IMG/VR virus record: IMGVR_UViG_3300031963_000037
Span: 45,380 to 109,379 of that record
Origin: a virus
DNA length: 64,000 nucleotides
Strand: one strand, 5' to 3'
The notes beneath the pieces were generated by a model that was given only the letters and a program-made list of their open reading frames with translations, did no database searches and had not been told where the DNA came from. Positions within the stretch are counted from its first letter, which is position 1. Each line of letters starts with the position of its first letter. The position numbers and the translations under genes are program-made. Shown in pieces: positions 7,614 through 62,724 of the stretch.

Positions 7614-7628
7614 AAATCCCTTTTTTTT
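7605..7628. terminator. Bidirectional intrinsic terminator
   Basis: GGGATTT and AAATCCC pair around a two-base centre, with A-runs on the left and eight T on the right. It lies between convergent genes and serves both strands. Confidence 0.85.
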
Positions 7629-8478
7629 ATTTATAGTTTTTGTTGATAATGTCTCTAATCTCGAAAGTTGTATTGTAGAACATACTTAGGAACTTTTTCC
7701 ATATTTCAGGATTAAATTTCTTAATCAATTCGACATAGTGTAAATAATATGGTTCCTCACCTCTTTCAGGAAGTAAGTCCGCCAAATGGGGCATATCTGC
7801 GGTCAGATTCTTAAGAACTTTGAATGAATCTTGTCCTACGTGTTCGTCATTGATTCTGAAAAGAATGTCTTGACTGAGCTTATTTAATGGCTCACCCTTG
7901 GCAAAATAGTTGAGAATATTTTTCAAAGACTTATCCAAAATCTCTTTGTTTTCAATTTTTCTTAATCTTTTTGCTCTTCTTTCAAATTCTCTTACAAGAC
8001 CTTCCAAGAACTCATTTGATATCGCAAAGAATTCTATTGGATGACCCCAATACTTTTCATCAGACTTTTCATCATAGCTCAACATATATTTTGGAGACCA
8101 AGAACTACTTTGAGTTGGGTCACTGGCGTGTATCATCTCATGATAGATTGTAAGATAAAGATTTTTCTTAGATTCGTAATATTTTGGATTTACCTCGATA
8201 TAAATGTCTGCGGGGTCATAAGATTTACTCGGTTTAGTTCCCATAAATCCCAAGTATTTCAATCTTGGATTAACAATCACTTTTACCAAACCGTCAACAC
8301 CATTTGCAGTTTTGAAGGGGATAACATCAACAACCTCTTTCTTATTACCGTAATTTTTGTTTCGGTCATTCCAAAGGTTTTCTACGACCGAATTAATTTT
8401 TTGTAGTAATTCAGGTGTGAATTTATATCTTTTAGCTTCAGATAAAATATCGGATAATATGTTGATGAATTTAGGCAT
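7627..8478 (-). CDS. Putative zinc metallopeptidase (HEMIH) with N-terminal tag
   Basis: 283 aa. Residues 113-117 are HEMIH inside YHEMIHASDP, the HExxH zinc site of gluzincin-like peptidases. The leader MPKFINILSDILSEAKRY ends in L-S-E, matching the tag shared by many proteins here and suggesting cleavage after residue 14. The start overlaps the end of the upstream HExxH gene by 8 bp. I cannot name the family. It could be a packaged protease or an inactive structural relative. Confidence 0.7.
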   Translation of the reverse strand: MPKFINILSDILSEAKRYKFTPELLQKINSVVENLWNDRNKNYGNKKEVVDVIPFKTANGVDGLVKVIVNPRLKYLGFMGTKPSKSYDPADIYIEVNPKYYESKKNLYLTIYHEMIHASDPTQSSSWSPKYMLSYDEKSDEKYWGHPIEFFAISNEFLEGLVREFERRAKRLRKIENKEILDKSLKNILNYFAKGEPLNKLSQDILFRINDEHVGQDSFKVLKNLTADMPHLADLLPERGEEPYYLHYVELIKKFNPEIWKKFLSMFYNTTFEIRDIINKNYK

Positions 8479-9253
8479 TCAAATCAGTCCTCCAATCTAT
8501 GTTTATTTTATTAGGTTTGATTTTACCTGTATAAGAATCAAATACTTGTTTGAAAGGTAATTGAGCTTGTTTGATGTTTTTGATTCTTGTCATGTTATCT
8601 CCTATCCCTGTAGATAAATAGGCTTGAATCTCATCATCTACCACATTTTCTCCATATCCCATACCAGTTATTTTTCTTGCTACCGATTCTCTTACATTTG
8701 GCTCGAGTCTTTCTATGTTTTTCATTTGTTTGTTCTTATAAATTGGAGATGAAAACCAAAGACCATGTGCTACTTCGTGAAAAATAAGTGAAGGGTCTTC
8801 ACCATTACTTTGGTCAATACCAATTAAATAGAAATCCTCTCCACCTACTAACGTTCTAATCGTATCTATTACACTAAACATTATCAAATCATAAAAATTT
8901 ACGTCTGGAATAACTTTCATACAAGATTCAATTGAGTTACAAGGGATATTATAACCTGCCCAATCTTCATGATAAGAGAAATAATCTTTCTTGGTCTTTT
9001 TCTTGTAATGTTTCACGTAGTCATACCATTTGAAACCTTTTCCTCTAAATGTCTCGGAATCTGACTCATAAAACTCCTGATACCTCATAAAAACTCTTGC
9101 TCTTAATTTGTCGTCTTTGATGACAAGAGCAAAAATCTTTGGATACATCTCGAAAAGTTCTATTTGGGATAAAATATTTTTGATGTTTGGTGGAGGAGTT
9201 TTTCTTGGAGTAAAGCCTCTTTGTTCAACTAATATGTATTTTACGTAAGCCAT
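8471..9253 (-). CDS. Putative zinc metallopeptidase (HEVAH) with N-terminal tag
   Basis: 260 aa. HEVAH at residues 159-163 (PSLIFHEVAHGLWF) is an HExxH zinc-binding motif. The first residues, MAYVKYILVEQRG, carry an L-V-E|Q candidate propeptide site. The ATG overlaps the preceding stop by one base and its own end overlaps the next gene by 8 bp, so the three minus-strand genes form one operon. The third zinc ligand is not obvious. Confidence 0.7.
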   Translation of the reverse strand: MAYVKYILVEQRGFTPRKTPPPNIKNILSQIELFEMYPKIFALVIKDDKLRARVFMRYQEFYESDSETFRGKGFKWYDYVKHYKKKTKKDYFSYHEDWAGYNIPCNSIESCMKVIPDVNFYDLIMFSVIDTIRTLVGGEDFYLIGIDQSNGEDPSLIFHEVAHGLWFSSPIYKNKQMKNIERLEPNVRESVARKITGMGYGENVVDDEIQAYLSTGIGDNMTRIKNIKQAQLPFKQVFDSYTGKIKPNKINIDWRTDLNA

Positions 9254-10263
9254 TAAAAATAATCAGAAAATATTTCATTTATGTTTTTGTCAAGCAATCT
9301 TGAGTCAGGGTAATCAGGAAACCACAATCTGAGACAATCCTTTTCTTCCCTAATTATTTCTATAAAACTTCCATGGTAATCAAGTGTTCCTGAATTTCCA
9401 TAACCTTTGTTAGAATGTAAAAAATCATTCACGATACCTTCGAAATCATATATTGGTATTTTGAATTTTTCAACCACAGTTTCTTTTTTGTATGGGTGGG
9501 GAACATTTATCCATTGTTTTTTTTCGGTGTTGAAATATTCATCCAATTTATTGAAAATGCTATTATATACCTCACTTTCGTAAGCAGAATTATATGAATT
9601 AGAATGAACAGAGTATAAATCAGATTTTACATCGGCAAGCTCATCTTTTAGTAAACTATTCATGGACTCCTCATCGTCGATTATTCTCGTCACATTTTCT
9701 GAATCTATAGTCCAATAATTTTCATGTCCTTGCTCAGTGGCTATTAACTCCATTTCTTCCGTATCAGGACTCAACTGTTGACCTGATAATTCTTTAACAA
9801 TCCTTTCTTTAAAAATTTCTAAATTCTCTTTGGTTAGTTCTTCAATGACATCTCTGTAAACATCATCGGTTGTGTCCCAATAAGGTTCGAAAACATCCTC
9901 ACCAACTAAAATACTTTCAATTGTATCTCTACTCGGACCGTCTCTTCTATCATCACAAAATAAAATTGCTAAATCAACTCTGTCACCTTGCCAATAAACA
10001 TCTTTACCTTCTATTACAACATCAGATAAAATCTCATTCATCCATTTGTAATATTTTTCTCTATCATTATCGTATAACCACAAAAGATATTCATTTTGCC
10101 AATCTTCGGAACCCGCAGCATTCTTCGGGTCGATTTCACCCATCAAACCTCTTTTCTTCAACACATTGAACCATGTTTCATAATCACCAAAATATTTTTT
10201 TACATCCAAGTCATTATTATTGAATGATTCCAAGAAACCACGTATAGAATATTCATTTTCCAT
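9253..10263 (-). CDS. Hypothetical acidic protein
   Basis: 336 aa from MENEYSIRGFLESFNN. An upstream in-frame ATG at 10290 would lie inside a terminator hairpin and upstream of a TATTTAT box at 10275-10269, so 10263 is the better start. The protein is rich in Asp, Glu, Trp and Tyr. No family recognised. It is first in the operon with the two HExxH genes. Confidence 0.7.
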   Translation of the reverse strand: MENEYSIRGFLESFNNNDLDVKKYFGDYETWFNVLKKRGLMGEIDPKNAAGSEDWQNEYLLWLYDNDREKYYKWMNEILSDVVIEGKDVYWQGDRVDLAILFCDDRRDGPSRDTIESILVGEDVFEPYWDTTDDVYRDVIEELTKENLEIFKERIVKELSGQQLSPDTEEMELIATEQGHENYWTIDSENVTRIIDDEESMNSLLKDELADVKSDLYSVHSNSYNSAYESEVYNSIFNKLDEYFNTEKKQWINVPHPYKKETVVEKFKIPIYDFEGIVNDFLHSNKGYGNSGTLDYHGSFIEIIREEKDCLRLWFPDYPDSRLLDKNINEIFSDYF

Positions 10264-10268
10264 ATCAT

Positions 10269-10275
10269 ATAAATA
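10269..10275 (-). promoter_or_regulatory. TATTTAT box, candidate late promoter
   Basis: Minus-strand TATTTAT five bases upstream of the chosen ATG at 10263, just below the terminator of the upstream small gene. Confidence 0.4.
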
Positions 10276-10302
10276 CAAAAAAAGGGACAAATTTTGTCCC
10301 TT
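10275..10302 (-). terminator. Intrinsic terminator
   Basis: AGGGACA and TGTCCCT pair around AATTT and are followed on the minus strand by a T-run. It ends the transcript of the small gene at 10330-10509. Confidence 0.75.
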
Positions 10303-10596: not shown

Positions 10597-12357
10597 ATGA
10601 AAATTTTAGAATTAATATTAGAAAACAAATCAGAAGAACTCAAAGCTAAGTATGGAACGAAATTTTCTGAGGAGCAATTGAAAAAAATCATTGATAACGT
10701 TCCTCAAAAATTTTGGGATTGGGTTGCCAAAAACTTTGAGGTGATGAACTTTGAATCTAACTTTCAAGACTTAGTCAGAAAACTTAGAGAATTTGATAAG
10801 ATTTCATCAAACCTACCTAAAACTGATATTAATTCATATAAAAGTGTTTCCGAACTCAGTGATGAATTACAAAAATATGCGAACAGACCAAGAAGAGATT
10901 ATAAACAAGTTGAGGGTGGTAAAGTTGTTTTCGATGATGGAAGATTTTTTGTTGTGAATCCTCAAACACATCAGGCTTCATGCTATTACGGTAAAGGAAC
11001 AAAGTGGTGCACCGTGGCAAGTTCAGACCACCAATTCAATTATTATAACACAGAGGGTAAATTGTTTTATATTTTAGATAGAAGTGCTGATTCATCTGAC
11101 CCATTCTACAAAGTAGCCTTGCTCAACAAATTTGACGGTAACAAAAGTTTTTTCACGGCCACAGACCAACAAACAAATATATATCCTGCTCATGTGGGCA
11201 CCGCTAAATACAATGAGATAATTAATCAGATAACTGAATACATGAACTCAGAGTATTCTGAACAAATAAAGATTTTTAATGACAAAGAAGCCGCGAAAAA
11301 AGAAAAAGAGAGACAAGAAGCACTAAGACAAGCAAGAATATTAAGGCAAATGAGAGACGATGCTGAGGAGAGAAGGATGGAAAATGAATGGGCTCTTGGT
11401 CCCGATTGTCCTGAAGAGGGTTTGAAAGCCCACGCCCTTTTAGATTGGTTGGTTGACACAAGTGACGTTTCAGCGTTGACAAATGAGGACAGAATAGAAA
11501 TTCAGAGACTTAAAGATGAAATCGAGAGACTTAAAAACCAATACGATAATAGTGAGGAAGTAGAAACAGACATTTTAGACGAAATCAGTGACTTAGAGGA
11601 TGAGTTGAATGAATTAGAGGAAAAAATTGATGTATACAACATAATACCCACAGGAGAGTATTATGATTGCACGGAATTTGAGGTAATAGATGCAGGTTTG
11701 AGTGATAGAAAATATGCGGTGGGAACGGAGGGTGAAATGCAATCAAGTTGTGAGGAAAGGGTGGATTCATTAATTGACGATATTGGTTATGGCGGTTTCA
11801 GTAGTGGGTTTGCGAGAGGTTTCATTGACGATGAACAAGTCGCGGACTATGCAAGAGACTACTTAGGGGACGATGTATATCAAAATCCTGAGGTTTATTT
11901 GGATGAAAGTGAGAGACAATTATCTTCCAAACAAAAAGAAGAAATCGAAATTCTCAAAATGAGAATAAAAAGAACCGAAGTAGAAATTGAGAGATTTGAG
12001 GAACTAATTGGGGACGGGGGAGATGATGATTCGATTCAAGATAAAATAGATGAACTAAGTGAATTGATAGTAGAATATCAGGATGAAATCGATGATATTG
12101 AGAACGACCCTGATGGAGAATTCCCTGATGATTTGGTTGAAGAAAAAGTTGATGAATTAGTTGATGATGTTATGAGAGACCCCGAAGGTTTTTTAAATGA
12201 GCATGGGATTGACTGGGAACAATTTATAGACAAAGATGAATTTATACAAGGGGTGATAGATGCTGATGGATTTGGGCAAACACTTAATTCTTACGATGGG
12301 AATGCTGATGAGGTGAAAATTCAAGACCAATGGTTTTACGTAATGAGAATTGATTAA
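10597..12357 (+). CDS. Large tagged protein with W-C motif domain and acidic coiled coil
   Basis: 586 aa. The TTG at 10594 is in frame but the ATG at 10597 is preferred. The leader MKILELILENKSEE has an I-L-E site. Around residues 125-170 lies GKGTKWCTVASSD followed by NYYNTEGKLFYIL, a pattern I associate with uncharacterised phage proteins. From about residue 210 the protein is a long Glu/Lys/Arg-rich helix with heptad-like repeats, and the C-terminal third is strongly acidic (Asp/Glu clusters). Possibly an internal head or scaffold-associated protein; function unknown. Confidence 0.65.
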   Translation: MKILELILENKSEELKAKYGTKFSEEQLKKIIDNVPQKFWDWVAKNFEVMNFESNFQDLVRKLREFDKISSNLPKTDINSYKSVSELSDELQKYANRPRRDYKQVEGGKVVFDDGRFFVVNPQTHQASCYYGKGTKWCTVASSDHQFNYYNTEGKLFYILDRSADSSDPFYKVALLNKFDGNKSFFTATDQQTNIYPAHVGTAKYNEIINQITEYMNSEYSEQIKIFNDKEAAKKEKERQEALRQARILRQMRDDAEERRMENEWALGPDCPEEGLKAHALLDWLVDTSDVSALTNEDRIEIQRLKDEIERLKNQYDNSEEVETDILDEISDLEDELNELEEKIDVYNIIPTGEYYDCTEFEVIDAGLSDRKYAVGTEGEMQSSCEERVDSLIDDIGYGGFSSGFARGFIDDEQVADYARDYLGDDVYQNPEVYLDESERQLSSKQKEEIEILKMRIKRTEVEIERFEELIGDGGDDDSIQDKIDELSELIVEYQDEIDDIENDPDGEFPDDLVEEKVDELVDDVMRDPEGFLNEHGIDWEQFIDKDEFIQGVIDADGFGQTLNSYDGNADEVKIQDQWFYVMRID

Positions 12358-16467: not shown

Positions 16468-17682
16468 ATGGCAGAATTTATAATTTCTGAAAAACAACTC
16501 CAACTTTTGAATTTAGAAATTCTCAAGCAAGACAATTATAGGCTTGCCGAAGAAAGTTGGTCAAAGTTTTCCAAAGAGGAAAAAAAACAAATCGTCGAAA
16601 CACTGTGTGTTCTATATCCATCAAAGGGTAAATTAGTAAACGAAGCAAAGTGGTATAACACCCTTGGTGATATCGTTGGAATTTTTGACCCAACAGGGGT
16701 AGTTGATTTAGTAAACGGTATCTCTTATTTGAAACAAGGAGATAAATTATTCGGATTATTATCAATCATTTCAGCTTTACCATATGCTGGAGACATCGTT
16801 GCCAAACCTATGATGGCAGCCCTCAAAATTGGTGGTCCTGGCGTGAAGAATTTGAGAAAAGTTACCGCCTTGGTTGAAGCAGGAAAAACAGCCGAAGCGG
16901 CTAAAATGCTTGATAATATAACCGCGATGGGTGGTGTGACAGGAAGATTTGTTTCAGCTTTCAGTAAAATCGCTGGTAAGTTAAGAGGATATATCGAAAG
17001 AGTTCCGATGCCATTGATGGGAGGGTTAAAGAAAACTGTTTTACAATGGTTTGATTTATTCGCTAATTATAATAAAGCAACAGCACCTTTGAGAAAAACA
17101 GGTCAAGAAATAGTGAGGGGTATGACAGGATTGAAAACTGCAACTACATCTGTTGGAGTATGGTCAAAAGCTAAACAACTAGCGGCACTCGAAGAACTTA
17201 CCAAACTAGCTAAAGAAGCACCAGGTTTATTTTCAGGTTATAGAACAACCAAAGGAATTTTGTCTTGGAAAAGTGTTTTCAGAGGAATGCCTCAACTATT
17301 GAATAGAAATGCATCCGTAAGAAGTTTAATGAGACAAACAAAATGGTGGATGGGATTATTAGATTATATGAATATTGCAAATTTTGTCGGACCCGATGAA
17401 TTGGCGGCTAAAATTGGTGAAGACGAACTTCTGAAAAATATGGAAAACTATAATAAAACAGAAGAAGCTCAAAATAATTTTGAGTCGGACTTTAACCAAG
17501 CAATAAACGCTGATGCAGGTCAAGATGGTGGTTCAGGTAAAGTAGGGTATGGGCAAATTCAACCTCTTTTTGGTTCTGGTGCTTACAAACCTCAAAGTTC
17601 ATCTGAAAAACCGAAAGAAAATAATCCAGTTCAAAACATGTTTAGTAATATGTTTTCGGGTTCGTTAAATCCTTTACCTTAG
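16468..17682 (+). CDS. Tagged protein with pretoxin-like hydrophobic helices
   Basis: 404 aa. The leader MAEFIISEKQLQLL contains I-S-E and resembles the shared tag. Residues about 65-115 (DIVGIFDPTGVVDLVNGISY, then SIISALPYAGDIVAKP) follow the pattern of pretoxin TG-like or glycine-zipper domains, with two amphipathic Gly/Pro/Ala helices. The middle is basic and helical, and the C-terminus is disordered (Gly/Ser/Asn/Pro). The same hydrophobic module recurs in the gene at 62074. Possibly a membrane-active protein carried in the virion. Confidence 0.65.
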   Translation: MAEFIISEKQLQLLNLEILKQDNYRLAEESWSKFSKEEKKQIVETLCVLYPSKGKLVNEAKWYNTLGDIVGIFDPTGVVDLVNGISYLKQGDKLFGLLSIISALPYAGDIVAKPMMAALKIGGPGVKNLRKVTALVEAGKTAEAAKMLDNITAMGGVTGRFVSAFSKIAGKLRGYIERVPMPLMGGLKKTVLQWFDLFANYNKATAPLRKTGQEIVRGMTGLKTATTSVGVWSKAKQLAALEELTKLAKEAPGLFSGYRTTKGILSWKSVFRGMPQLLNRNASVRSLMRQTKWWMGLLDYMNIANFVGPDELAAKIGEDELLKNMENYNKTEEAQNNFESDFNQAINADAGQDGGSGKVGYGQIQPLFGSGAYKPQSSSEKPKENNPVQNMFSNMFSGSLNPLP

Positions 17683-17697: not shown

Positions 17698-18069
17698 ATG
17701 AAAGAAGAATTGATAAAAAAATTAGTCCAAATCCAAATTCAATGGAGATTTTTACACTGGCAGACGTTTGGTGATGCAAAACATAAAACCTACGGTGCAA
17801 TTTATGAGGGATTAGATGGTCTCATTGATGAGTTCACTGAAACCATGATGGGAAAGTATGGTAGACCTGAATTTGAACCTGAGTTTGGATTGATGTTTCA
17901 AGACATCAGTAAGTTAAGTATTCAGAATTTCATGGACGGAATCACAGAATTTTTAGTTGGAATCTCTGACCAATTGGACTCGAGATATGATACAGATTTA
18001 TTGAATCTAAGAGATGAAATGTTAGGTTTGATTAATAAATCGAAATACTTGTTGACTCTGAAATATTAA
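17698..18069 (+). CDS. Ferritin/Dps-like helical protein
   Basis: 123 aa, all-helical. WRFLHWQTFGDAKHKTYGAIYEGLDGLIDEFTE has the spacing of Dps/ferritin-like four-helix proteins, and such small proteins occur in T4-like marine phages. Only some of the usual metal ligands can be placed. Start chosen by the ATG after a short gap; its stop overlaps the next start. Confidence 0.6.
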   Translation: MKEELIKKLVQIQIQWRFLHWQTFGDAKHKTYGAIYEGLDGLIDEFTETMMGKYGRPEFEPEFGLMFQDISKLSIQNFMDGITEFLVGISDQLDSRYDTDLLNLRDEMLGLINKSKYLLTLKY

Positions 18070-20225
18070 TGAAGAACCTAATAACTGAGACAGGTTTAAG
18101 AGATATTTCCGCATTAAGAAAAAGATACCCGAAGGCTGAAATATATTTCCACCAAGATTTAGATGGTGTAACTACTGCTATTGCGATGAAAAAATACCTT
18201 GAGAACAATGGTATTGATGTGGTAGATGTTCACGTAATACAATATGGGGAAAAAGAATTTGCGGTTAAGAAGAATGACGCTAAGGGTGATACCATGCCTG
18301 TTTTGGTTGACTTTGCTCATGGTAAACCAATGTTCGTTATCCACACGGACCATCATGACAAACAAATAGGTGCGGAAAAAGGTGCTTCGAAATCATTTAG
18401 ACAAGCACGTTCAAACGTGGAAACAATCTCACAAATAATTTCACCCAAAGATTTATTTCCCTCATCTGACGTTTTATTGATTAACACTGTTGACTCCGCA
18501 GATTTCGCTAGACAAGATATAAGTCCCGAGGAGGTAGTCAATTATCTTTTTAGATTAGATAAAGAAAAGCCGTTACAAAGAAACAAAATGTTATTGGGTT
18601 TCGTTATAAACAAACTCATTTTAGCATTCAAAAACAAGAAAGGATTTTTGGAGCGACTTGTAATGAATTCAGAACCATCTTTGATGAATATACTTAGTAA
18701 CATCAAAACATGGATGAAAGATACAAATGCACCAAAACCAGAAGAACTACAAAAACACGCACAAGATTATGCAAAACAAATGAAAGGATTTCCCCATGTT
18801 GAAGATAATATCATTTACCAATATGGTGGAGGTAGTATGGTTAAGCCTGGCTCTTATGACAGGTATACCCCATTTAGAAATAACCCTGAAGCAGACTTTC
18901 TCATCATGGCATGGCCGATGGGATTACTTCAAGTATCATGCAATCCTTTTAAAAAGGAAAGGAAGCTCAAAGGTGTTAATCTCGGAGAGATTGCTAAAGA
19001 GGTCATTGCAAAGTATGAAGCTCAACTCAAGGAAAGAAAAGTCCCGTTATCAACGATAAAATGGATTAGTGAAACAGGTGTTAACCCTGAAAGTGTTGGG
19101 TTTACATTCGAGGATTTTAATGCGGTTTATGGTGAAAAATTTGCAGAACAAGAAAGAGGAGAAGAGGCTTTGAATAGACTTAAAGAAATGATGTCAAAAC
19201 CATTTACATCATTAACAGATGAAGAAAAAAGTATCTTAGATAATATTAATGTAAGTGCTTGGGAATTAATCAACGCAAACTCTGGAGGTCACAAGTGTAT
19301 CACGAATATAAGTGGATTGAACTATCTTGGTAGGTCCAAAAGACCACCCGAAGGTCAATATAGATATGACCCTGAAAGAGAAGATGCACCATATGTAAAA
19401 TTTACAAAAATGTTGGCTTCAGATTTCTTCAGAAAGTTAAAGGAAAAAATTTCTCAATCTGAGTCAAAATTGGAGGAACAGTACAATCCCTCTTCGGGGG
19501 ACATTAGAGTACCAAGTTTATCAATTGCAAGACAGAAGGATGATTTTGTTTTTAAGTCACTTCAACCCATAGACAAAAATCAATCAGGTTTTTTTATGTT
19601 CTTTGTTTTTCCGAAATATAGACCTTCAATGACAGATTCTTGGATTGCTCGCATATTAGCATTCCACGGAAGAGCATTGGAGTGGGTAGAGGATTATTTA
19701 GGTTTGAATGAACAAGTTGGAAAGAGAGAAATCAAAATATATGCCACTGGACATGGAGGTTGTATTTTAGTTGACCATACAGGTATTGTAAAATTATATG
19801 AGTTTGGACCTTACGATAACGATGGAAACGGAAAGGTTTTGAAAACTGAAATGGGGAAAATTGCGACTATAGATTCACAAGGAAACTTCACAAATGCTGG
19901 TGATGTTGCAAGAACTTGTAAAGCCAAAACTTTCAAAGACGGTCCAAATCTAACAATGTGGACAAATGTTATGAGATTACCTAATTTCACAGACTCTGTG
20001 AACGAGGCTAGTAAACCAAGAAGTTACTCATTCATAGATTTGACAGAGGGTGGTGATTCGAATTGTGCAACCTTTGCAGTAGATGTTGCTAAAGCAGGTG
20101 GTATTTCAGATATTAGTATAGGTTCAACCACAATACCATTTTTTGGAACAGTGCCTGAGAAACCAAAAACAATATTTTTGAGAATGAGGTCAAGTAAATT
20201 TTTTGTGAGAGATTTCACAGTTTAG
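18069..20225 (+). CDS. DHH phosphoesterase fused to a papain-like (NlpC-like) C-terminal domain
   Basis: 718 aa. The first residues MKNLITETG carry the I-T-E tag. Residues 28-33 (HQDLDG), 81-85 (DFAHG), 92-97 (HTDHHD) and 139-146 (NTVDSADF) are the metal-binding motifs of the DHH superfamily (RecJ, nano-RNase, c-di-AMP phosphodiesterase). From about residue 555 comes GHGGCILVDHTG with YEFGPYD, and near 664 NCATFAVDVAK. This His-then-Cys order is that of circularly permuted papain-like/NlpC-P60 hydrolases. The middle region is unrecognised. The fusion suggests one protein acting on a nucleotide or nucleic acid and on peptidoglycan or another amide. Confidence 0.75.
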   Translation: MKNLITETGLRDISALRKRYPKAEIYFHQDLDGVTTAIAMKKYLENNGIDVVDVHVIQYGEKEFAVKKNDAKGDTMPVLVDFAHGKPMFVIHTDHHDKQIGAEKGASKSFRQARSNVETISQIISPKDLFPSSDVLLINTVDSADFARQDISPEEVVNYLFRLDKEKPLQRNKMLLGFVINKLILAFKNKKGFLERLVMNSEPSLMNILSNIKTWMKDTNAPKPEELQKHAQDYAKQMKGFPHVEDNIIYQYGGGSMVKPGSYDRYTPFRNNPEADFLIMAWPMGLLQVSCNPFKKERKLKGVNLGEIAKEVIAKYEAQLKERKVPLSTIKWISETGVNPESVGFTFEDFNAVYGEKFAEQERGEEALNRLKEMMSKPFTSLTDEEKSILDNINVSAWELINANSGGHKCITNISGLNYLGRSKRPPEGQYRYDPEREDAPYVKFTKMLASDFFRKLKEKISQSESKLEEQYNPSSGDIRVPSLSIARQKDDFVFKSLQPIDKNQSGFFMFFVFPKYRPSMTDSWIARILAFHGRALEWVEDYLGLNEQVGKREIKIYATGHGGCILVDHTGIVKLYEFGPYDNDGNGKVLKTEMGKIATIDSQGNFTNAGDVARTCKAKTFKDGPNLTMWTNVMRLPNFTDSVNEASKPRSYSFIDLTEGGDSNCATFAVDVAKAGGISDISIGSTTIPFFGTVPEKPKTIFLRMRSSKFFVRDFTV

Positions 20226-47796: not shown

Positions 47797-48377
47797 ACAT
47801 ATCAGAAATTAATAAATCATTTGTTTGGTTACAAGCTAGAACAGGTTCGGTTCATTGTGTAAAAGTTTTGAAAAACTACGGATTTTCAACTTACAAAAAA
47901 ACGCCTGATGGTTTGAAAGTAATCCCGTTAAACAATAACCATTCCTTCGATTATCCAAGCGGACACAAAGATTATATTTTTTTATCTACGGCTCGAAATC
48001 CATTTTCAAGAATTTTATCTTTTTATAAATTTAATCACAAAAATCCGAATATTTGGAGTCCTGAAAGTTTTCAGAACTATTTTTATATGAACTTTCCTAA
48101 AACAACATTGAGATGTATAATTTGGCCATTTAAGGAAAGGACTCCGGATTATTTTATCAGAATCGAAAATCTTTATGATGATTACAATAAAATACCTTTC
48201 ATAGCAAATTCCGATTTCGATAAATTAGTTCAAATTAGAAATTTATGTTCTATTAAAGATAATGATACCGATGTCATAAATGACGTTGACAAATATTTCA
48301 CTCAGGAAATCAAAGATATTATTTTTTCCTGTTCTCAAGACTACTGTAGTATGTTAAACTATGATTATCCATTCTGA
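47793..48377 (+). CDS. Sulfotransferase-like protein A
   Basis: 194 aa. [20 protein letters not shown] resembles the 5'-phosphosulfate-binding loop and [18 protein letters not shown] the 3'-phosphate-binding motif (xxRNPxxRxxSxY) of PAPS-dependent sulfotransferases. The C-terminus ([15 protein letters not shown]) fits the carbohydrate sulfotransferase layout. Paralogue of the next gene. Acceptor unknown; a glycan or fibre protein is plausible given the upstream glycosyltransferases. Confidence 0.7.
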
Positions 48378-48379
48378 CA

Positions 48380-50273: not shown

Positions 50274-51611
50274 ATGAATCTGCAAGAAAACATACGAAGA
50301 ATCAGAGTTCTCATGGGGGAAGCGGTCGAAGACGAAAGTTTCGAAATATCCTATGACGTTGACCCTAAAATTAAGGATTTACAAAATTTCTTAACATCAA
50401 AGAAATATTACATTGGAAAGTTTGGTCCGAACAAGGATGGTGTTGACGGGAAGTATGGTCCATTCACAAAGGCGGCACACGAGGCATTTAAAGCTGGAAT
50501 GAAACCAGAGGTTTTCAACAATCGAAGAGAACAAATTGCGCAGAAATATATTGGTGATGTAAAAGATGAGACACTCAGTAAAGAGTTCAATTTTCACTTG
50601 ATTCCTGATGGGAAAAATAATTACCGTTCTGCACAGATACCTGTAACACTTAATGGTAAAGATTATTTGTCAGAGCTTATCGACAAATACCGAATAAAAA
50701 CTATCATCAGATTCAACGGAGACGGTCGTGATTCAAGACATTACTCGACACACCCGATGACAACAATACAATCAGAAAAGAATTTAGCAGAATCAAAAGG
50801 GGTTAAATTCTTTAAACTTTCATCTACTAAAGACCAAGATAAAGTTAATTCATTACTTAGCCAAGGTAATGTTCTCATACACTGTGCTCACGGTGCCGAT
50901 AGAACAGGTGGAAATGTTGGAGGTTACCTTTACCAAAACGGTTGGGGTGACACTAAAAAAATATGGGATTATACAACTAACTACAATGGTTGGAACCGAA
51001 TGCTAATGTCTAATCCAAAACTTTTTGTCATGACAGGGTTTTTACCACAAGCACAAAAATTCGGTGTGAAGGATTTAGAACAAGCCATAGACTTAGCCAA
51101 TAACAAAAAGACGATAACTAAAGGTAAGAATACTATTTCTCAAGGTAAAAATATCATTATTGGGGATTCACAAGTCCCATATGTTGATATGAATACAACT
51201 AAAGCGTCGAGGTTGACCAAATCAGGTGGAATTGATGGTCTTTGGGAAGGTGGAAAAACTGTTTCATGGTTGACAGACGCAGTTTCACAATATCCCAAGA
51301 GTAATGACGTTTCCAATGTAATTATAGTAATTGGGACTAATGGGGGATTTGGTAAATTTACCAAGGATGATATACCCAGATTGTTTAGCGTTCTGAAATC
51401 AAAGTTTCCAAACGCTAACTTTTACGTCGTTCAAGGTTCTTGGGGATGGGGTGGATTGAAAAACATAACAGAAAAAGAAGTGAGAAATTACTATAAACAA
51501 TTTAAACAACAGGGGGCAACCTTGATTGAACCACCGATAGGTAAAATTGAGCCACATTCGAATCATCCTATTTATCAATCTATTGGTTCGAGTATTGATG
51601 GTATGTTATAA
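50274..51611 (+). CDS. Tagged three-domain protein: PG-binding, Cys-phosphatase, SGNH hydrolase
   Basis: 445 aa from MNLQENIRRIRVLMGEAVED (L-Q-E and M-G-E sites). Residues 29-73 follow the peptidoglycan-binding PG_binding_1 pattern (IKDLQNFL, GVDGKYGPFTKAAHEAF). Residues 125-245 are a dual-specificity-like phosphatase with the P-loop HCAHGADRTGG (Cys204, Arg210). Residues 290-445 are an SGNH esterase: GDS at 297-299, GTN at 354-356 and HSNH at 428-431. The combination suggests attack on wall or lipopolysaccharide substituents after delivery. The longer frame from 50160 is rejected because of the box. Confidence 0.75.
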   Translation: MNLQENIRRIRVLMGEAVEDESFEISYDVDPKIKDLQNFLTSKKYYIGKFGPNKDGVDGKYGPFTKAAHEAFKAGMKPEVFNNRREQIAQKYIGDVKDETLSKEFNFHLIPDGKNNYRSAQIPVTLNGKDYLSELIDKYRIKTIIRFNGDGRDSRHYSTHPMTTIQSEKNLAESKGVKFFKLSSTKDQDKVNSLLSQGNVLIHCAHGADRTGGNVGGYLYQNGWGDTKKIWDYTTNYNGWNRMLMSNPKLFVMTGFLPQAQKFGVKDLEQAIDLANNKKTITKGKNTISQGKNIIIGDSQVPYVDMNTTKASRLTKSGGIDGLWEGGKTVSWLTDAVSQYPKSNDVSNVIIVIGTNGGFGKFTKDDIPRLFSVLKSKFPNANFYVVQGSWGWGGLKNITEKEVRNYYKQFKQQGATLIEPPIGKIEPHSNHPIYQSIGSSIDGML

Positions 51612-51621: not shown

Positions 51622-52296
51622 ATGAAGATAAGATTAACTGAAGAAAAATTAGTCCAAATTATAACTGAAATTGTTGAACAAGTTAATCAACAACCAACAA
51701 AGTTATTGGAGGTTCCTCATTTTTTGCAATCAGATGATAGCACCTGTGGACCCGCATCACTCAGGATGGTATTTGGTTACTACGGAAAAAACATGAGTGA
51801 AAAAGATATTGCGGAGATTTGTGACCATACCTATGAATTGGGGTGTAAAAGTGAAGATATGGCATGTGCTGCAGAGGCACTCGGATTTGATGTTTATCTT
51901 AAAAATAATTCTACAATTGATGAAGTTATTAAGTTGGTTGATGCTAACGTCCCTGTAATTGTTGATTGGTTTTGTGGTGACCCACCTGAAGGTCACTCTT
52001 CAGTTGTTATAGGGTATAATGATGATAACTTATTCATACTTGACCCTTACTTAGAAGAAATGAGGGTTGTCAGTAAAACTGACTTCAGAAGATGTTGGTT
52101 TGACTTTTACGAAACGCCAATCAATCCACAAAACTTATACGTCGGACAAATAATTGTCATAAGACCTAAGTCGGGTCAAAAGATGGAACAAACAGAAGGA
52201 GAACTGAAAGAGAGATGCTGGAAAGGATACACCCAAAAGGGTATGAAAACGATGTTTGGGAAAAGATACCCAAACTGTGTAAAAATAAAAAAATAA
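51622..52296 (+). CDS. Tagged C39-like cysteine peptidase
   Basis: 224 aa. Leader MKIRLTEEKLVQIITEIVEQ with several [I/L]-x-E sites, the last I-V-E|Q. The papain-like domain has DDSTCGPASLRMVFGYYG (Cys42), GHSSVVIGYNDD (His125) and ILDPY (Asp141), as in bacteriocin-processing C39 peptidases. The C-terminal CWKGYTQKGMKTMFGKRYPN then CVKIKK is a short Cys motif I have seen at the ends of phage structural proteins. Cleaves an unknown peptide, possibly in the periplasm. Confidence 0.8.
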   Translation: MKIRLTEEKLVQIITEIVEQVNQQPTKLLEVPHFLQSDDSTCGPASLRMVFGYYGKNMSEKDIAEICDHTYELGCKSEDMACAAEALGFDVYLKNNSTIDEVIKLVDANVPVIVDWFCGDPPEGHSSVVIGYNDDNLFILDPYLEEMRVVSKTDFRRCWFDFYETPINPQNLYVGQIIVIRPKSGQKMEQTEGELKERCWKGYTQKGMKTMFGKRYPNCVKIKK

Positions 52297-52840: not shown

Positions 52841-53137
52841 ATGAAAAACATTCCATTATTTAGAACCGTAAAACACACTTATTATGAAAGGTGTGATGTC
52901 CAAAAAGAACAATATACCATACAAGTTAAGAAGAAGTTTTTATTCTTTTGGGAAAGATGGTATACAATCAAAGAAATGGTTTGTGGATGGGGTGATTGTC
53001 ACACCACAGCAATTGTATTCAAAACAGAATCGGAAGCAATATATGCAATCAAGAATTTGAAAAACGGTTATCTTGCCGATGGATGGACAGGAGAAGTCTC
53101 TACGGTATTAGATTTTAATAAGAAGTTAGAATATTAG
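52841..53137 (+). CDS. Hypothetical protein
   Basis: 98 aa from MKNIPLFRTVKHTYYERCDV. WERWYTIKEMVCGWGDCHTT contains two close Cys. A TAGATTTG sequence lies just ahead of the ATG but has no -33 partner. Convergent with the next gene, stops overlapping. Confidence 0.6.
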   Translation: MKNIPLFRTVKHTYYERCDVQKEQYTIQVKKKFLFFWERWYTIKEMVCGWGDCHTTAIVFKTESEAIYAIKNLKNGYLADGWTGEVSTVLDFNKKLEY

Positions 53138-53517
53138 TTTTTGGTGGGGTAAATGTCAATCTCATCAATATCACCACCCAAAGTCTCACTAACCCAATCA
53201 GCAACGATATCAAGAACCTTGCTTTCTCTAATGGAGAATGTCTTTTTCAGTGCATCAACAATTCTGTGGTGGATGTGAAGACTACCAACACCATTGTGTG
53301 GAGGAGTATCTTCGTCGTCGTCCCAAGAATTACCTGGCCCAAACCAAAAATAGTTCATGAGTTCATTACCATCATTATCAAACATATTAATCCTCCATGT
53401 ATTACCGTCTTTTACATATGGATTAATTTCTTTTCTAAAGTCTTTGTTAGAGAACATTTCATTCAAGTATCTGTATATCAAAGAATGAAGTTGTGTTTGT
53501 GTTATAATATATCTCAT
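53134..53517 (-). CDS. Tagged small protein (RYIITQTQL leader), paralogue of the 34 kb family
   Basis: 127 aa. Leader MRYIITQTQLHSLIYRYLNE with L-N-E. The C-terminal DALKKTFSIRESKVLDIVAD followed by WV matches the layout of the genes at 34313-35290. Acidic patch DDDEDTPPHNG. Function unknown. Confidence 0.65.
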   Translation of the reverse strand: MRYIITQTQLHSLIYRYLNEMFSNKDFRKEINPYVKDGNTWRINMFDNDGNELMNYFWFGPGNSWDDDEDTPPHNGVGSLHIHHRIVDALKKTFSIRESKVLDIVADWVSETLGGDIDEIDIYPTKN

Positions 53518-58182: not shown

Positions 58183-58566
58183 ATGTCAAAAGTTATAAAA
58201 CTTACAGAACAAGATTTGGTTCGTTTGGCGAAAAGAGTAATTCAAGAACAATCAGAGACTTTAGAATCTTTTTTACAAATGGTAAAAAAAGATTTTTTAA
58301 AGAAAGGATTCAAACTTATTAAAAGCAATTATTCACTTTTATCAATGTACAAGAGACCTTACACGGTTGATTTTTATGATGAAGGAGGTCAAAAAAAATT
58401 GATTTTAAGTGACACGGGGACAAGTCCAGAATCTACAATAATTTATTTGAATAACTATAGTATGTTCGGACCTTTCGTTGTAGAATATTTTAAAGGTGGA
58501 AAAAAAATCAAAACAGAAAAATTGGATGGATATAAAATTGGGCAACTTCTCCAAAACTTTGGGTAA
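58183..58566 (+). CDS. Cassette 1: tagged protein
   Basis: 127 aa from MSKVIKLTEQDLVRLAKRVI, then QEQ (I-Q-E|Q site at residues 20-22). The body ends FGPFVVEYFKGGKKIKTEKL and IGQLLQNFG, homologous in layout to cassette 4 at 60000. Unknown fold. The frame from 58135 is rejected since it starts before the box. Confidence 0.7.
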   Translation: MSKVIKLTEQDLVRLAKRVIQEQSETLESFLQMVKKDFLKKGFKLIKSNYSLLSMYKRPYTVDFYDEGGQKKLILSDTGTSPESTIIYLNNYSMFGPFVVEYFKGGKKIKTEKLDGYKIGQLLQNFG

Positions 58567-58973: not shown

Positions 58974-59270
58974 ATGAATAGAAGTTTCAGTAAAATAAGA
59001 CATATTCAGGAATCAAATTTAATGTTGGAAAAAAGATTATTGAAGGAACAACCTGAAAGTAGATTTGGTATGCACAATCTTTCTGAACAATCAACTCCTC
59101 AAACAATAAAATCAGACCCTAATGCGGTTAAATCAACTGAAGAACTAATAAAAAATATTAAATCAGGTTTTTGTATTCCCTCATATGAGTATGGTTCTAG
59201 AACAAGAATAGATTGTAAGGATAAAAGATATTATGAAATAAGATACTACAGACGATTCGGTCAAAGTTAA
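58974..59270 (+). CDS. Cassette 2: tagged protein
   Basis: 98 aa. Leader MNRSFSKIRHIQESNLMLEK followed by RLLKEQ (L-K-E|Q at residues 23-25). This leader type (NRS-x-SKIRHIQE) is shared only with cassette 6. The short body ends RYYEIRYYRRFGQS. The function is unknown. Confidence 0.65.
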   Translation: MNRSFSKIRHIQESNLMLEKRLLKEQPESRFGMHNLSEQSTPQTIKSDPNAVKSTEELIKNIKSGFCIPSYEYGSRTRIDCKDKRYYEIRYYRRFGQS

Positions 59271-59373: not shown

Positions 59374-59889
59374 ATGTCGAAAATTATAAAATTAACTGAA
59401 TCCGACTTGTTGAATTTGGTTAAGAGAGTTATAAAAGAACAAGCACCTATGGCTCAAGTTCCTTTGTTAACTGTTCTTGCAACTCCAGCTTTGGTTAATG
59501 CTTCAAGCGACGGAACTGGTACAATTTATCTTTCACAAAGAGACAACAAAGGACAGAACATTCCAAACACAACTTACAAATACAGTGTAAAAGGGGTGTA
59601 TGACCCAGGTTCATTTTTACCTAACGTGCCTTTTAATGTAATTTTGAGAAATGTTAGAAGAGACAGACAAGGAACATTACTGGGAGAAGCTCAACCATCA
59701 GGTAATGCTATGAAAAAAATCATGAAAGAATTAATTCCTACCGACGCTCTGACCTCCGATGGATGGATGAAATTTAGAGTACCTCAAGACAAACTAAATG
59801 CGGGATTACAATCTTTGGCTGGTAATCAAGGAAAAAGTGCAACTATTGACGCGGGTAATGGTGTAAAAATTAAGCTCTCTTTAATTTAA
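59374..59889 (+). CDS. Cassette 3: tagged beta-rich protein
   Basis: 171 aa. Leader MSKIIKLTESDLLNLVKRVI then KEQ (I-K-E|Q at 20-22). The body is all-beta (TIYLSQRDNKGQNIPNTTYK, YSVKGVYDPGSFLPNVPFNV) and ends VKIKLSLI. Unrecognised. Confidence 0.7.
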   Translation: MSKIIKLTESDLLNLVKRVIKEQAPMAQVPLLTVLATPALVNASSDGTGTIYLSQRDNKGQNIPNTTYKYSVKGVYDPGSFLPNVPFNVILRNVRRDRQGTLLGEAQPSGNAMKKIMKELIPTDALTSDGWMKFRVPQDKLNAGLQSLAGNQGKSATIDAGNGVKIKLSLI

Positions 59890-59999: not shown

Positions 60000-60440
60000 A
60001 TGTCAAAGATTATAAGATTAACAGAAAACGATTTGATTCGTTTGGTTAATAAAGTTATTAAAGAACAAAATACAAAGACTGATGGTGAAAATGATATATA
60101 TGGTGGTTTTTTAAATAAAATTAAAAATATACTTAGAGAAAAGGGATATAATAATGTAAAAAAACAGAAACTAAATATCTATACCGAGAACCTTATTAGT
60201 ATGGCAAAAGGAAACAACAAAGTTGAAAATTTTTCGGATGATGAAGGGGATTTTATACAATTGAGTAAAAATAATCACCCTAATTATGAATTCAAAAAAA
60301 TATATTTTAGTGGACTAAAAGACATTAATGGACCATACAAAGTTGAATATTATACAAGGGTTGGGGACGAGAAACCCAAATTAATTAAAACTGAAAATAT
60401 GAATAGGGGTCAAGTATTCAAATTGATACAAAGTTTGTAA
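60000..60440 (+). CDS. Cassette 4: tagged protein, paralogue of cassette 1
   Basis: 146 aa. Leader MSKIIRLTENDLIRLVNKVI then KEQ (I-K-E|Q). The C-terminal half, IYFSGLKDINGPYKVEYYTR and NRGQVFKLIQSL, parallels cassette 1. Basic. Unknown fold. Confidence 0.7.
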   Translation: MSKIIRLTENDLIRLVNKVIKEQNTKTDGENDIYGGFLNKIKNILREKGYNNVKKQKLNIYTENLISMAKGNNKVENFSDDEGDFIQLSKNNHPNYEFKKIYFSGLKDINGPYKVEYYTRVGDEKPKLIKTENMNRGQVFKLIQSL

Positions 60441-60530: not shown

Positions 60531-60830
60531 ATGAAAAAGATAGTAAAACTCACAGAATCTGACTTAACAAGATTGGTTAATAAGATAGTAAAGGAACAAA
60601 GAAGAGAGGATGACCCTACTGAAGATTATTTTAAAGTAATTGATATGGTTGCAAATCACGCAATGGATGAGGAGGAGGATTTGGATGAGGTTGAAAGATG
60701 TATTAATGAAATTTATAAAATAATGCATGAGGCTTATCAAGACGACGATTTGACTGATGAACAAGCCGATGAGATTATTGATTATGCAAAGGAGGTTGTT
60801 AAAGAATTGGAATCAATGTTTGATGAATAA
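60531..60830 (+). CDS. Cassette 5: tagged acidic protein
   Basis: 99 aa from MKKIVKLTESDLTRLVNKIV then KEQ (V-K-E|Q, the only Val at this site). The rest is strongly acidic and helical (DEEEDLDEVERCINEIYKIM, DDDLTDEQADEIIDYAKEVV). Possibly a DNA-mimic or scaffold-like head protein. Start chosen by box and leader; the frame to 60513 is rejected. Confidence 0.7.
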   Translation: MKKIVKLTESDLTRLVNKIVKEQRREDDPTEDYFKVIDMVANHAMDEEEDLDEVERCINEIYKIMHEAYQDDDLTDEQADEIIDYAKEVVKELESMFDE

Positions 60831-60931: not shown

Positions 60932-61438
60932 ATGAATAGAAGTTATAGTAAAATCAGACACATACAAGAAGCCAACATCAGATTGGAAAAGAGATTATTG
61001 AAAGAAGATGAATCTCAAGTTCTTGACGTGATTAATAATGAACTATCAACAGTTGGGGAAGAACCCGTATCGACTGAAGATATTGAATTTGCGTTGAACG
61101 ATTGTCCACTTGAAACTCCTCCAACTGCGGATGAGAAACAAAAGACAATGCTTCAGAAAATCAAAGAACAAATCGATGGTCTGACTTCAGCCAAAGATGT
61201 TAAGGAGTTAATCAAAAAGGTTAAATCAATTTTCAAAAGAAAAACTCAAAGTGAACAAGTGGGAGAGATTGTAACAATTGGTGCAATGGCAATCCCTGTT
61301 GTTTTCATTCAGGTGTTTGCAGGTATTATCATTTTAATGTTGGTTGTTAAACTAATCAAATTGATTGGTGGCAACACAAGAACGAGTAAGGAATGTAGAC
61401 AAGCATCAAGAAGAATGAGAAAATATGGTCCGCTCTAA
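60932..61438 (+). CDS. Cassette 6: tagged single-pass membrane protein
   Basis: 168 aa. Leader MNRSYSKIRHIQEANIRLEK then RLLKED (L-K-E). It continues with an acidic helix, a Lys-rich helix (DVKELIKKVKSIFKRK) and a transmembrane segment at about residues 111-146 (GAMAIPVVFIQVFAGIIILM), then a basic tail. A cleavable leader plus a membrane helix suggests a protein that enters the host envelope on ejection. Confidence 0.7.
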   Translation: MNRSYSKIRHIQEANIRLEKRLLKEDESQVLDVINNELSTVGEEPVSTEDIEFALNDCPLETPPTADEKQKTMLQKIKEQIDGLTSAKDVKELIKKVKSIFKRKTQSEQVGEIVTIGAMAIPVVFIQVFAGIIILMLVVKLIKLIGGNTRTSKECRQASRRMRKYGPL

Positions 61439-61507: not shown

Positions 61508-61522
61508 AATAAAATTAAAATT

Positions 61523-61996
61523 ATGAAACACATTTTAAACAATATTTCTGAAGAAGAAAAAAACGCCATCCGTGAACAACATAAAGGTGGAATGAGAGTT
61601 TACAACGAGAAGTTCAAACAATTGGTTGAAACTAAACAAGGTGATGTAAAACCATATTTGACCGAATCAGCTGAAGCACAATCAATGATTGATGCGGCAA
61701 TACAAAAATTTGAAAGTGGTGCAAAACCTGACCCTAAAATACAGGAAAAAATCAAAAAATGTATCACATCAAAACAACTCACAAGTTTAATGTTTTTAAC
61801 TACAAGTGCTGGAGCTTATGCTCTTGGAATCGTTGCTATGTTAATTGCAAACCCTGTTGGATTGGTTGCTGGAGGTGTGTTGGCATTATCTTCACTAATT
61901 GTAATCTTTTTAACAGGATTACCTGAAGACCAAGGTGGTTTAGGTTCTGACCCAGCGAAAGATGTAAAAGCATTGTTAAGTTGTATTGGGATTTAA
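61523..61996 (+). CDS. Cassette 7: tagged two-helix membrane protein
   Basis: 157 aa. Leader MKHILNNISEEEKNAIREQH (I-R-E|Q at residues 16-18). After a polar helical part, two hydrophobic helices follow (LMFLTTSAGAYALGIVAMLI, VGLVAGGVLALSSLIVIFL). Gly/Ala-rich, as in small pore-forming or membrane-spanning ejection proteins. Function unknown. Confidence 0.7.
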   Translation: MKHILNNISEEEKNAIREQHKGGMRVYNEKFKQLVETKQGDVKPYLTESAEAQSMIDAAIQKFESGAKPDPKIQEKIKKCITSKQLTSLMFLTTSAGAYALGIVAMLIANPVGLVAGGVLALSSLIVIFLTGLPEDQGGLGSDPAKDVKALLSCIGI

Positions 61997-62020
61997 AAAA
62001 AAAATAATTTCTATAACAAG

Positions 62021-62050
62021 ACCCTCTTCATTCACGAAGGGGGTTTTTTA
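62021..62050 (+). terminator. Cassette terminator 7
   Basis: ACCCTCTTC-ATTCAC-GAAGGGGGT, then T6. Confidence 0.9.
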
Positions 62051-62060
62051 TTTCCCAAAG

Positions 62061-62067
62061 TATTTAT
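62061..62067 (+). promoter_or_regulatory. TATTTAT box, cassette 8
   Basis: Six bases before the ATG at 62074. Confidence 0.55.
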
Positions 62068-62073
62068 TGTAAT

Positions 62074-62724
62074 ATGAAATACATTATCACAGAATCTCAA
62101 TTGAAGACCATCATGATGGAACAAGGTTATTCAACAGATTACGAAAGACGTGAATTAAAGAAGGTTGATAATCAAGTCGCAGCTCAGAATAAATTGGGTA
62201 AGTTGGGTCCAAATTTGGATGCTGATGATTATGCTGATATTGTTTCAGGTTTGGTTGATGCTGTACCAGGAATTGGTAATCTAATATCAATTGGTATTGA
62301 TGTTACACATGCTCTCACATATGTTGTTAGGTATTTCTTTGCAAAGACAACTGAAGAAAAAATTGAAATGTCTTTATTGGCGGTTGTTACATTTGCTTCG
62401 TCACTAATTCCTGTTGGAGGTAATGCCTCAAACATTGCTGCGAGAGTGGAAGTAAAATCTTTATTAAAAAAGACACCGTTTGAACTTCGTGTGATTATGA
62501 AAAACATGGGTATAATAAAATCTGCAGGTTTCAACTTAGCAAAAGAACCTTGGAAATATTCCTTCATGATTGCTCTTGTAAAAATATTCAAATCAAAAGC
62601 CGCAGATGCTCTCGCTATTGTCTCAAGCAAACTCGCAGCTTTATCAAATAAATCAAAAGAGTTGAAACCTTATATTGATGACTTCAATACACAAATCAAA
62701 GATGTTCAAACAATGTTGGCATAG
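62074..62724 (+). CDS. Cassette 8: tagged protein with pretoxin-like hydrophobic module
   Basis: 216 aa. Leader MKYIITESQLKTIMMEQGYS (I-T-E and M-M-E|Q). Residues about 50-115 contain DIVSGLVDAVPGIGNLISIG and MSLLAVVTFASSLIPVGGN, two Gly/Pro-hinged hydrophobic helices like those in the gene at 16468 and in pretoxin TG-type domains. The C-terminal part is basic and helical. May insert into membranes. Confidence 0.7.
   Translation: MKYIITESQLKTIMMEQGYSTDYERRELKKVDNQVAAQNKLGKLGPNLDADDYADIVSGLVDAVPGIGNLISIGIDVTHALTYVVRYFFAKTTEEKIEMSLLAVVTFASSLIPVGGNASNIAARVEVKSLLKKTPFELRVIMKNMGIIKSAGFNLAKEPWKYSFMIALVKIFKSKAADALAIVSSKLAALSNKSKELKPYIDDFNTQIKDVQTMLA

Follow-up and report, generated by a model that had tools for sequence, protein, structure and literature searches.

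What might a short, recurrent N-terminal segment be doing on a long series of otherwise different viral proteins? The question is raised by a 64,000-nucleotide stretch of DNA (hereafter the window), positions 45,380 to 109,379 of the IMG/VR virus record IMGVR_UViG_3300031963_000037, a 109-kb record that we refer to as G000. A preliminary description of the window had listed 24 genes whose products begin with a segment containing [I/L]-x-E, and had read these segments as cleavable leaders that direct a protein cargo into the phage head. Leaders common to proteins whose bodies are unrelated proved to be real, exceeding chance by a wide margin. Judged from sequence comparison, they are likely to be capsid-targeting propeptides of the kind known from phage T4, tags by which proteins are very probably packed in the phage head and so carried to the next host cell; the capsid-cargo interpretation is in this sense supported.

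The window could be placed in a larger genome. The gp46-like protein of G000 has 221 relatives in IMG/VR, from which 80 loci were kept. The 321-kb record behind locus L005, G001, matches window positions 1-62867 at 99.6-100% on its reverse strand, and we take it to be the same virus, a giant phage from a lake; the last 1.1 kb (62868-64000) matches G001 in two pieces at only 66-70% identity, a departure that we read as a strain difference or a recombination point. A megablast search with window positions 1-25000 found no match among cultured phages. Gene calls outside annotated records came from a simple finder, and the starts of leader genes were extended.

All 24 listed genes proved to be open reading frames from their starts (23 with ATG, the gene at 44672 with GTG), and all 24 carry [IL]xE within the first 32 residues, as had been claimed. 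This bare motif was rejected as evidence, since half of the window genes have it early: 39 of 78 in the first 32 residues, with 12 of 78 for [IL]xEQ. The longer motif, said to occur very often, is present in 11 of the 24 listed genes; across the genome as a whole it exceeds chance. The preliminary description had proposed searching the whole genome and related phages for the leader motif, and [IL]xEQ was found near the N-terminus of 35 of 353 G001 proteins (mean of 1000 shuffles 5.7, maximum 14) and of 22 of 307 proteins of the relative G008 (shuffle mean 4.7, maximum 13).

A motif-free test compared residues 2-32 across protein pairs without body similarity, with residues 41-71 as internal control (proteins of at least 72 residues; score threshold of at least 45). 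In G001, 104 of 53,909 pairs reached the threshold at the N-terminus and none internally, and the related genomes G003, G006 and G008 gave 67 versus 1, 53 versus 2 and 74 versus 2 pairs, respectively. The Flavobacterium phage vB_FspM_immuto (hereafter immuto) gave 11 versus 0 pairs, T4 gave 5 versus 4, and Microcystis phage Mel-JY01 gave 6 versus 1, by eye not of the leader type. Neither N-terminal nor internal pairs were found in crAss001 (98 of 102.7 kb tested) or RM378 (50-kb piece tested). With G001, G003, G006, G008 and immuto combined (1585 proteins), 1059 N-terminal pairs stood against 50 internal pairs, the internal test covering proteins of at least 72 residues and the counts including some Sec-like signal peptides and other small clusters. 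The largest N-terminal cluster comprised 173 proteins from 124 body families (49 from G001, 43 from G006, 40 from G008, 38 from G003 and 3 from immuto; the four related genomes thus give 170), and early [ILVMF]xE[QAS] was present in 120 of its 173 members versus 190 of 1206 other proteins. Together with a second, small cluster, the G001 leader set amounts to 50 of 353 proteins, a count that is approximate, three entries (G001rc 246, 299 and 219) looking spurious by eye. Ten named control genes, encoding bS21, primase, the gp46-like protein, a sigma factor, a Y-family polymerase, thymidylate synthase, terminase, portal, sheath and baseplate J, were all outside the leader set. Among the listed genes, 17 of 24 fell into the one unsupervised cluster and the gene at 33596 into the second; the remaining six (7627, 8471, 10597, 16468, 18069 and 44672) lie outside both clusters and rest on the motif.

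Single-linkage clusters can chain, and one or a few fast-evolving families in which the N-terminus is the conserved part could also produce such a cluster by remote homology. The cluster was therefore re-tested with a stricter criterion of body homology (phmmer E<1 or profile E<0.1), applied to those 169 members which had sufficient length and did not come from immuto. Of 913 within-cluster pairs, 788 were retained, and the largest strict cluster held 145 proteins in 89 body groups. Leader proteins range from 88 to >500 aa and include YkuD, C39, MORN, PPK2, thioredoxin and PG_binding_1 domains, a diversity of size and domain that argues against common descent. Remote homology does apply to one body group of 24 strict-cluster proteins (94-206 aa), which includes the products of window genes 34313, 34668, 34973 and 53134. 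These four form one paralog family, so that the statement that all bodies differ fails for them. As an explanation of the leaders in general, remote homology seems to us quite improbable.

The leaders fall into sequence families, labelled A to F (a slash marks the putative cut). The type A consensus is M-x-K-[IV]-[IV]-[KR]-L-T-E-S-D-L-x-R-L-V-K-R-V-I-x-E-Q; those of types B to F are MKYIITESQL..LLEQ, MNLNENISRIKELMG..VEQ, ..IKKILRE[AEQ], MNRSxSKIRHIQEANxxLEKRLLKE and MKHILNNISEEEKNxIREQ, respectively. In the 34 type A proteins examined, which represent 28 body families, the first Glu is invariant and the last is found in 33; Gln follows it in 20, and P3 is Ile or Leu in 28. Between type A leaders on unrelated bodies, pN was 0.375 and pS 0.661, giving a pN/pS of 0.57, compared with 1.03 and 1.04 when calculated alike at 30 and 60 codons downstream. 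With synonymous sites near saturation, this ratio indicates that the type A leader is conserved as protein.

Leader genes also share an upstream element. In G001, the 45 nt upstream of the start contain TATTTAT in 35 of 50 leader genes versus 63 of 303 other genes (p 1.5e-11); the corresponding figures are 20 of 38 versus 61 of 318 in G003, 21 of 43 versus 59 of 321 in G006 and 27 of 43 versus 70 of 264 in G008; immuto showed no real excess (2 of 7 versus 27 of 198). In the window, 14 of the 24 listed genes have it. In leader genes its first nucleotide usually lies 11-13 or 19-23 nt ahead of the start codon. Non-leader genes with TATTTAT include those for portal, protease, scaffold and sheath, and none of the five DNA/RNA-metabolism controls has it. 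We infer that TATTTAT is a late promoter element; were it to act as a -10 element, late mRNAs would in many cases have almost no 5' leader. The T4-like sequence TATAAATA showed no leader-gene excess in G001, G003 and G008 and a weak one in G006 (p 0.02).

Such sharing near the start codon would be expected if the leaders were part of a cassette, made up of late promoter, start region and first codons, that spreads as one piece because it aids translation initiation and has no role as protein, and a gene for bS21, proposed to favour phage transcripts (PMC9723584; this and the other sources cited are quoted for the parts of their text that were consulted), lies in the head module. The substitution pattern points the other way, amino acids of type A leaders being conserved over nearly saturated synonymous sites. 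Moreover, the 40 nt upstream are only 37% identical between type A genes and 31-37% identical within leader types, and many non-leader genes, 63 of 303, have TATTTAT as well. Initiation cassettes are an improbable explanation of the leaders.

By composition the leaders resemble amphipathic helices: the helical moment reaches a maximum of 0.62 within the leader, versus 0.46 downstream, and leader hydrophobicity is low. A hydrophobic core as in Sec signals (10-residue mean KD of at least 2.0) was found in 1% of the 169 leader-cluster proteins as compared with all 14 of a separate Sec-like cluster in the same genomes. In G008, several unrelated proteins carry Sec-like signal peptides (such as MKNFIITILFSLLTLISFSQ) that form a separate cluster. 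Export to the host envelope might suit the several cargo domains that act on or bind the cell wall, but hardly PPK2 and thioredoxin, which are also among the cargo; with the hydrophobic core missing as well, we give secretion signals very little credence. All three of these alternatives (homology, initiation cassette and secretion signal) were tested, and for the most part they were rejected.

The preliminary description had suggested that a prohead protease be sought elsewhere in the genome. None resembling gp21 is encoded in the 109-kb fragment G000, whereas G001 has one. At E 3.7e-13 it matches a prohead core protein protease of solved structure, 5jbl, the sequence of which is that of T4 gp21; at E 6.1e-43 it matches phrog_207 (head maturation protease). 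Peptidase_S77 (PF03420) exceeded its cut-off in G001 and in every one of the 8 related records of >300 kb, although an identical gp46 in three of these suggests that they could be a single virus; among 14 related records it did so in 10. In T4, gp21 cuts after L/I-X-E (PMC9026906). The G001 capsid protein is of the gp23 type (phrog_138, E 7.2e-65), and a MAFFT alignment places FLTE/A of T4 gp23 over LINE/A of the G001 protein. The cut in T4 gp23 is at the Glu of FLTE/A. The LINE/A residues are kept in G003, G006 and G008, and immuto has IVSE/A. Neighbours in the head module carry the motif early as well: gene 266 has IKE/Q in three genomes, and gene 338 has IVE, ILE, IME or ITE before Q in four genomes.

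In G001 a single module holds terminase and portal of T4 type (portal PF07230, E 3.5e-76), protease, capsid protein and, on the opposite strand, the ribosomal protein bS21 (PF01165, E 1.7e-10). Jumbo phages that encode bS21 and infect freshwater Bacteroidetes have been described with the same arrangement (Chen et al. 2022, PMC9723584). With its reverse-strand bS21 inside the terminase-portal-protease-capsid region, G001 very likely belongs to this lineage of bS21 Bacteroidetes jumbo myoviruses, and Bacteroidetes are the presumed hosts because that study assigns such phages to them.

The known domains of leader proteins are consistent with removal of the leader. Cargo in the window includes YkuD (38755), a C39-like peptidase domain from residue 29 (51622), MORN repeats (36044) and a TseH-like domain (18069); 4 of 20 scanned window genes, from the 24 listed, have a Pfam family over the curated cut-off. 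In G001, gene 203 (reverse-complement coordinates 154618-155724) combines a type C-like leader with a polyphosphate kinase 2 (PPK2) domain (E 1.4e-70) and is a candidate head-packed kinase. PG_binding_1 was found in gene 176 and, below the cut-off, in gene 327, and the G001 leader set gave one Glucosaminidase match, the gene of which was not traced. Wall-related domains are represented, by YkuD and C39 in the window and by PG_binding_1 and Glucosaminidase elsewhere. At a relative's locus, L250, a thioredoxin match (profile positions 4-103 of 103) begins at residue 25, two residues past the Glu-Gln of the leader. All confidently matched known domains start after the putative cut. At E 0.001, 34 of 40 leader or leader-like G001 proteins had no Pfam match, none of the 40 matched a PADLOC defence-system model, and of 80 metagenomic type A proteins, 39 of which were scanned, only few matched any family.

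A reading without cleavage is that the leaders are docking tags which bind a component of the virion or replication site (tail, core or membrane) and stay on the mature protein. A raised helical moment fits any docking helix, cleavage itself being inferred, and some type B leaders have no clear [IL]xE/Q at their end. Neither the coincidence of the leader end with a protease motif, including the near-invariant Glu (33 of 34 type A proteins), nor the start of the matched domains behind the putative cut would be expected of an uncleaved tag, and we judge this alternative unlikely, if the most credible of those considered. Capsid-targeting propeptides remain the preferred reading: all four sequence-testable defining features of the T4 system are present, namely a short N-terminal leader common to proteins with unrelated bodies, [L/I]-x-E at the leader end (in type A, less uniformly overall), an S77 prohead protease in the same genome (G001), and a gp23-type capsid protein with an [L/I]-x-E maturation site.

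Several observations weigh against this reading, in addition to the group of 24 proteins whose shared N-termini may be due to homology. Early [ILVMF]xE[QASGTN] occurs in just 38 of 49 G001 cluster members (81 of 304 other proteins). Both the G008 protease and G008 gene 266 are without the early site of the other three genomes. The T4 head-protein starts that were inspected by eye are Ala, Ser and Asp, with no Gln at P1' among them. The capsid gene, which adjoins the scaffold gene, has no TATTTAT in its upstream 45 nt. Mel-JY01 (PP395634.1) has an annotated prohead protease and a T4-type capsid protein and no such leaders; the protease alone therefore does not imply a cargo system. When 14 records with the leader were searched for an S77 protease, 10 had one, among them each of the 8 that measure 120 kb or more, and this speaks for the reading; two further leader-bearing records, G010 (183 kb) and G013 (163 kb), gave no S77 match. 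All of these records are possibly fragments. Finally, orthologs of leader genes themselves belong to the leader cluster in no more than 7 of 10 cases for G003, 7 of 10 for G006 and 8 of 12 for G008.

The last figures bear on the exchange of leaders. Orthologous bodies may carry different leaders (gene pairs 173/117, 176/307 and 279/169); gene 279, for example, starts with MKKRFINE/A in G001 and MLSEIIKKVLRE/A in G008. In other orthologs, e.g. genes 42 and 280, the leader is kept. Reciprocal best hits were found for 10 of 49 leader genes versus 178 of 304 others in G003, 10 of 49 versus 152 of 304 in G006, and 12 of 49 versus 123 of 304 in G008, from which we conclude that leader genes turn over fast. 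When IMG/VR was scanned with four of the window's type A leaders, at least 600 pattern matches were obtained; 281 were confirmed and 80 kept, some of these 80 loci coming from the same virus. The 79 kept frames long enough to compare represent 42 body families; Glu22 is present in 78 of 80, a count partly selected for, as the search patterns contained Glu and not Gln, and Gln23 in 66 of 79. TATTTAT lies upstream of 57 of the 80. A tblastn search of cultured phages with a 24-residue leader gave no match, the query being too short to conclude from.

These observations suggest the following mechanism. Leader genes would be switched on late, together with the head genes, via the shared TATTTAT. 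The amphipathic helix predicted for the leader would, by analogy with T4, dock the protein onto the scaffold core of the prohead, where the gp21-type serine protease of the phage would cleave [I/L]-x-E behind its Glu, most often with Gln as the next residue. The freed bodies would stay alongside the DNA in the head and be delivered with it at the next infection. The leader would then act as an exchangeable passport under which cargo can be swapped quickly, since unrelated bodies share leaders and some orthologous bodies carry different ones. A wider proposal is possible and rather doubtful: about 50 proteins (~14% of genes) per genome might be injected via portable leaders, which would be the largest known head cargo; the leader families might be distinct prohead addresses (core, shell, portal) that code position or ejection order; and the whole might be a fast-exchanged arsenal recognisable in metagenomes by its leader. 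Most phage genes are of unassigned function and injected proteins are known for very few phages. If capsid targeting holds, the leaders would turn sequence into a list of injected proteins for a widespread aquatic phage group, with hundreds of candidate effectors (wall enzymes, kinases, thioredoxin and many proteins of unassigned function) and new packing tags for protein delivery.

The listed window genes are on the plus strand unless indicated otherwise. Type A leaders precede unassigned bodies in four cluster members with TATTTAT upstream, MSKVIKLTEQDLVRLAKRVIQE/Q at 58183-58566, MSKIIKLTESDLLNLVKRVIKE/Q at 59374-59889, MSKIIRLTENDLIRLVNKVIKE/Q at 60000-60440, which has IMG/VR relatives, and MKKIVKLTESDLTRLVNKIVKE/Q at 60531-60830. 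A type A-like leader, MKIRLTEEKLVQIITEIVE/Q, precedes the C39-like peptidase domain (residues 29-143; PF13529, E 1.2e-18) of cluster member 51622-52296. Type B leaders, all in the cluster, include MKYIITKSQLAKLQE/Q on an L,D-transpeptidase (YkuD, residues 68-221; PF03734, E 9.8e-21) at 38755-39426 and MKYIITESQLKTIMME/Q on a body without a family over the cut-off at 62074-62724, both with TATTTAT; a type B-like leader, MMKRYIITEQQ..., is found on a small protein at 34021-34338. The paralog family is represented in the window by 34313-34666 (MKYVITENRL...), 34668-34976 (MKYIISENRL...), 34973-35290 (MKYIITENRL...) and, on the minus strand, 53134-53517 (MRYIITQTQL...LNE; ortholog G008_040), all with type B leaders.

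Six further leader genes have TATTTAT. The type C leader MNLQENIRRIRVLMGE/A stands before a body with weak phosphatase similarity at 50274-51611 (PF00782, E 0.003, below the cut-off), MELRSLIWKVLKE/Q before a MORN-repeat body (PF07661) at 36044-37609, and type E leaders at 58974-59270 (MNRSFSKIRHIQESNLMLEKRLLKE/Q) and 60932-61438 (MNRSYSKIRHIQEANIRLEKRLLKE/D). The type F leader MKHILNNISEEEKNAIRE/Q is at 61523-61996; these five belong to the large cluster, and the type D leader MRELIKKILRE/A at 33596-34024 to the second one. Membrane helices had been claimed for some bodies; by eye, there is one hydrophobic segment in the body of 60932 and there are several in that of 61523.

Of the six genes outside both clusters, 7627-8478 (minus strand; leader-like MPKFINILSDILSE/A) pairs with the leader of gene 42 and has a weak metallopeptidase-like body (SprT-like, E 0.0027, below the cut-off). 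MAYVKYILVE/Q at 8471-9253 (minus strand) has the motif alone, and MKILELILE/N at 10597-12357 the motif and TATTTAT, as does 16468-17682 (MAEFIISEKQL...), which shows weak similarity to a phiKZ internal head protein (PF12699, E 0.0013, below the cut-off). MKNLITE/T at 18069-20225, motif alone, precedes a part with a weak DHH match (E 0.00035, below the cut-off), which is followed by a TseH-like domain (PF25218, E 5.6e-8); its G008 ortholog has 468 aa versus 718 aa here and aligns with residues 1-464 only. VILREQILRIKRLINE/L at 44672-45289, again motif alone, has an uncertain GTG start. Of the bodies named in the preliminary description, YkuD, C39 and MORN were confirmed over the cut-off, and metallopeptidase, phosphatase and DHH are weak matches below it.

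Two other regions of the window drew attention. Positions 225-7613, with a GC content of 48-50% versus 32-39% in the remaining window, encode, one after another, three long proteins built of collagen-like Gly-x-x repeats. Their C-terminal segments resemble one another, and by eye the proteins are tail-fibre-like with a chaperone end. Two neighbouring genes at 47793-48997, sulfotransferase-like by eye, have a TARNPxxRxxSxYKF segment in common.

How does the system compare with those already known? Other large phages, phiKZ, 201phi2-1 and SPN3US, have many head proteins cut after Glu by gp21-like proteases, with 19 processed proteins in 201phi2-1 (PMC9026906) and 9 substrates in SPN3US (PMC10052503). 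Their motifs are S/A-x-E in phiKZ and A-x-E in SPN3US, most SPN3US propeptides being long, whereas here the leaders are short and repeated and end in [I/L]-x-E, with Ile or Leu at type A P3 and I-N-E at the capsid site in place of the phiKZ-type motif. The bS21 jumbo myoviruses share with G001 the genome size and the reverse-strand bS21 between terminase/portal and protease/capsid (PMC9723584); the main text of that paper contains no match for leader, capsid targeting, cleav or injected, and suggests that bS21 itself might be encapsulated. Among open-licence full texts, without supplements, we found no published description of such a leader system. In the cultured phage immuto (MW353175), too, unrelated genes share leaders, and its T4-type head module has an annotated prohead protease. 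In comparison with G001 its leader genes are fewer and mostly of its own types (MENFDLKKFLVENKLT...; MKKQILSEQFKRMQ...), three proteins joining the large leader cluster, and as a cultured relative it makes the idea testable.

The closest likeness is to T4 itself. Its capsid-targeting sequences, on IPI-III and as the Alt propeptide, are, like the leaders of G001, short N-terminal segments on unrelated proteins and are cut by gp21 (PMC9026906, PMC3012670); [L/I]-x-E at the cut, the protease family and the capsid protein family are also the same. Internal proteins of T-even phages are a varied set in which only the targeting sequence is conserved (PMC3012670; PMC12373910), with at least 10 reported over the T-even relatives (PMC12373910). 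The T4 leader has 10 residues and is shared by IPII and IPIII, while leaders here reach about 25 residues. Unlike in T4, which shows the pattern on a small scale with a handful of proteins, about 50 proteins are involved, with at least six leader families, Gln is usual at type A P1', the leader sequences themselves are different, and leaders are exchanged. As far as its sequences tell, the system works like T4 capsid targeting and differs from it in scale, leader sequences, Gln at P1' and exchange.

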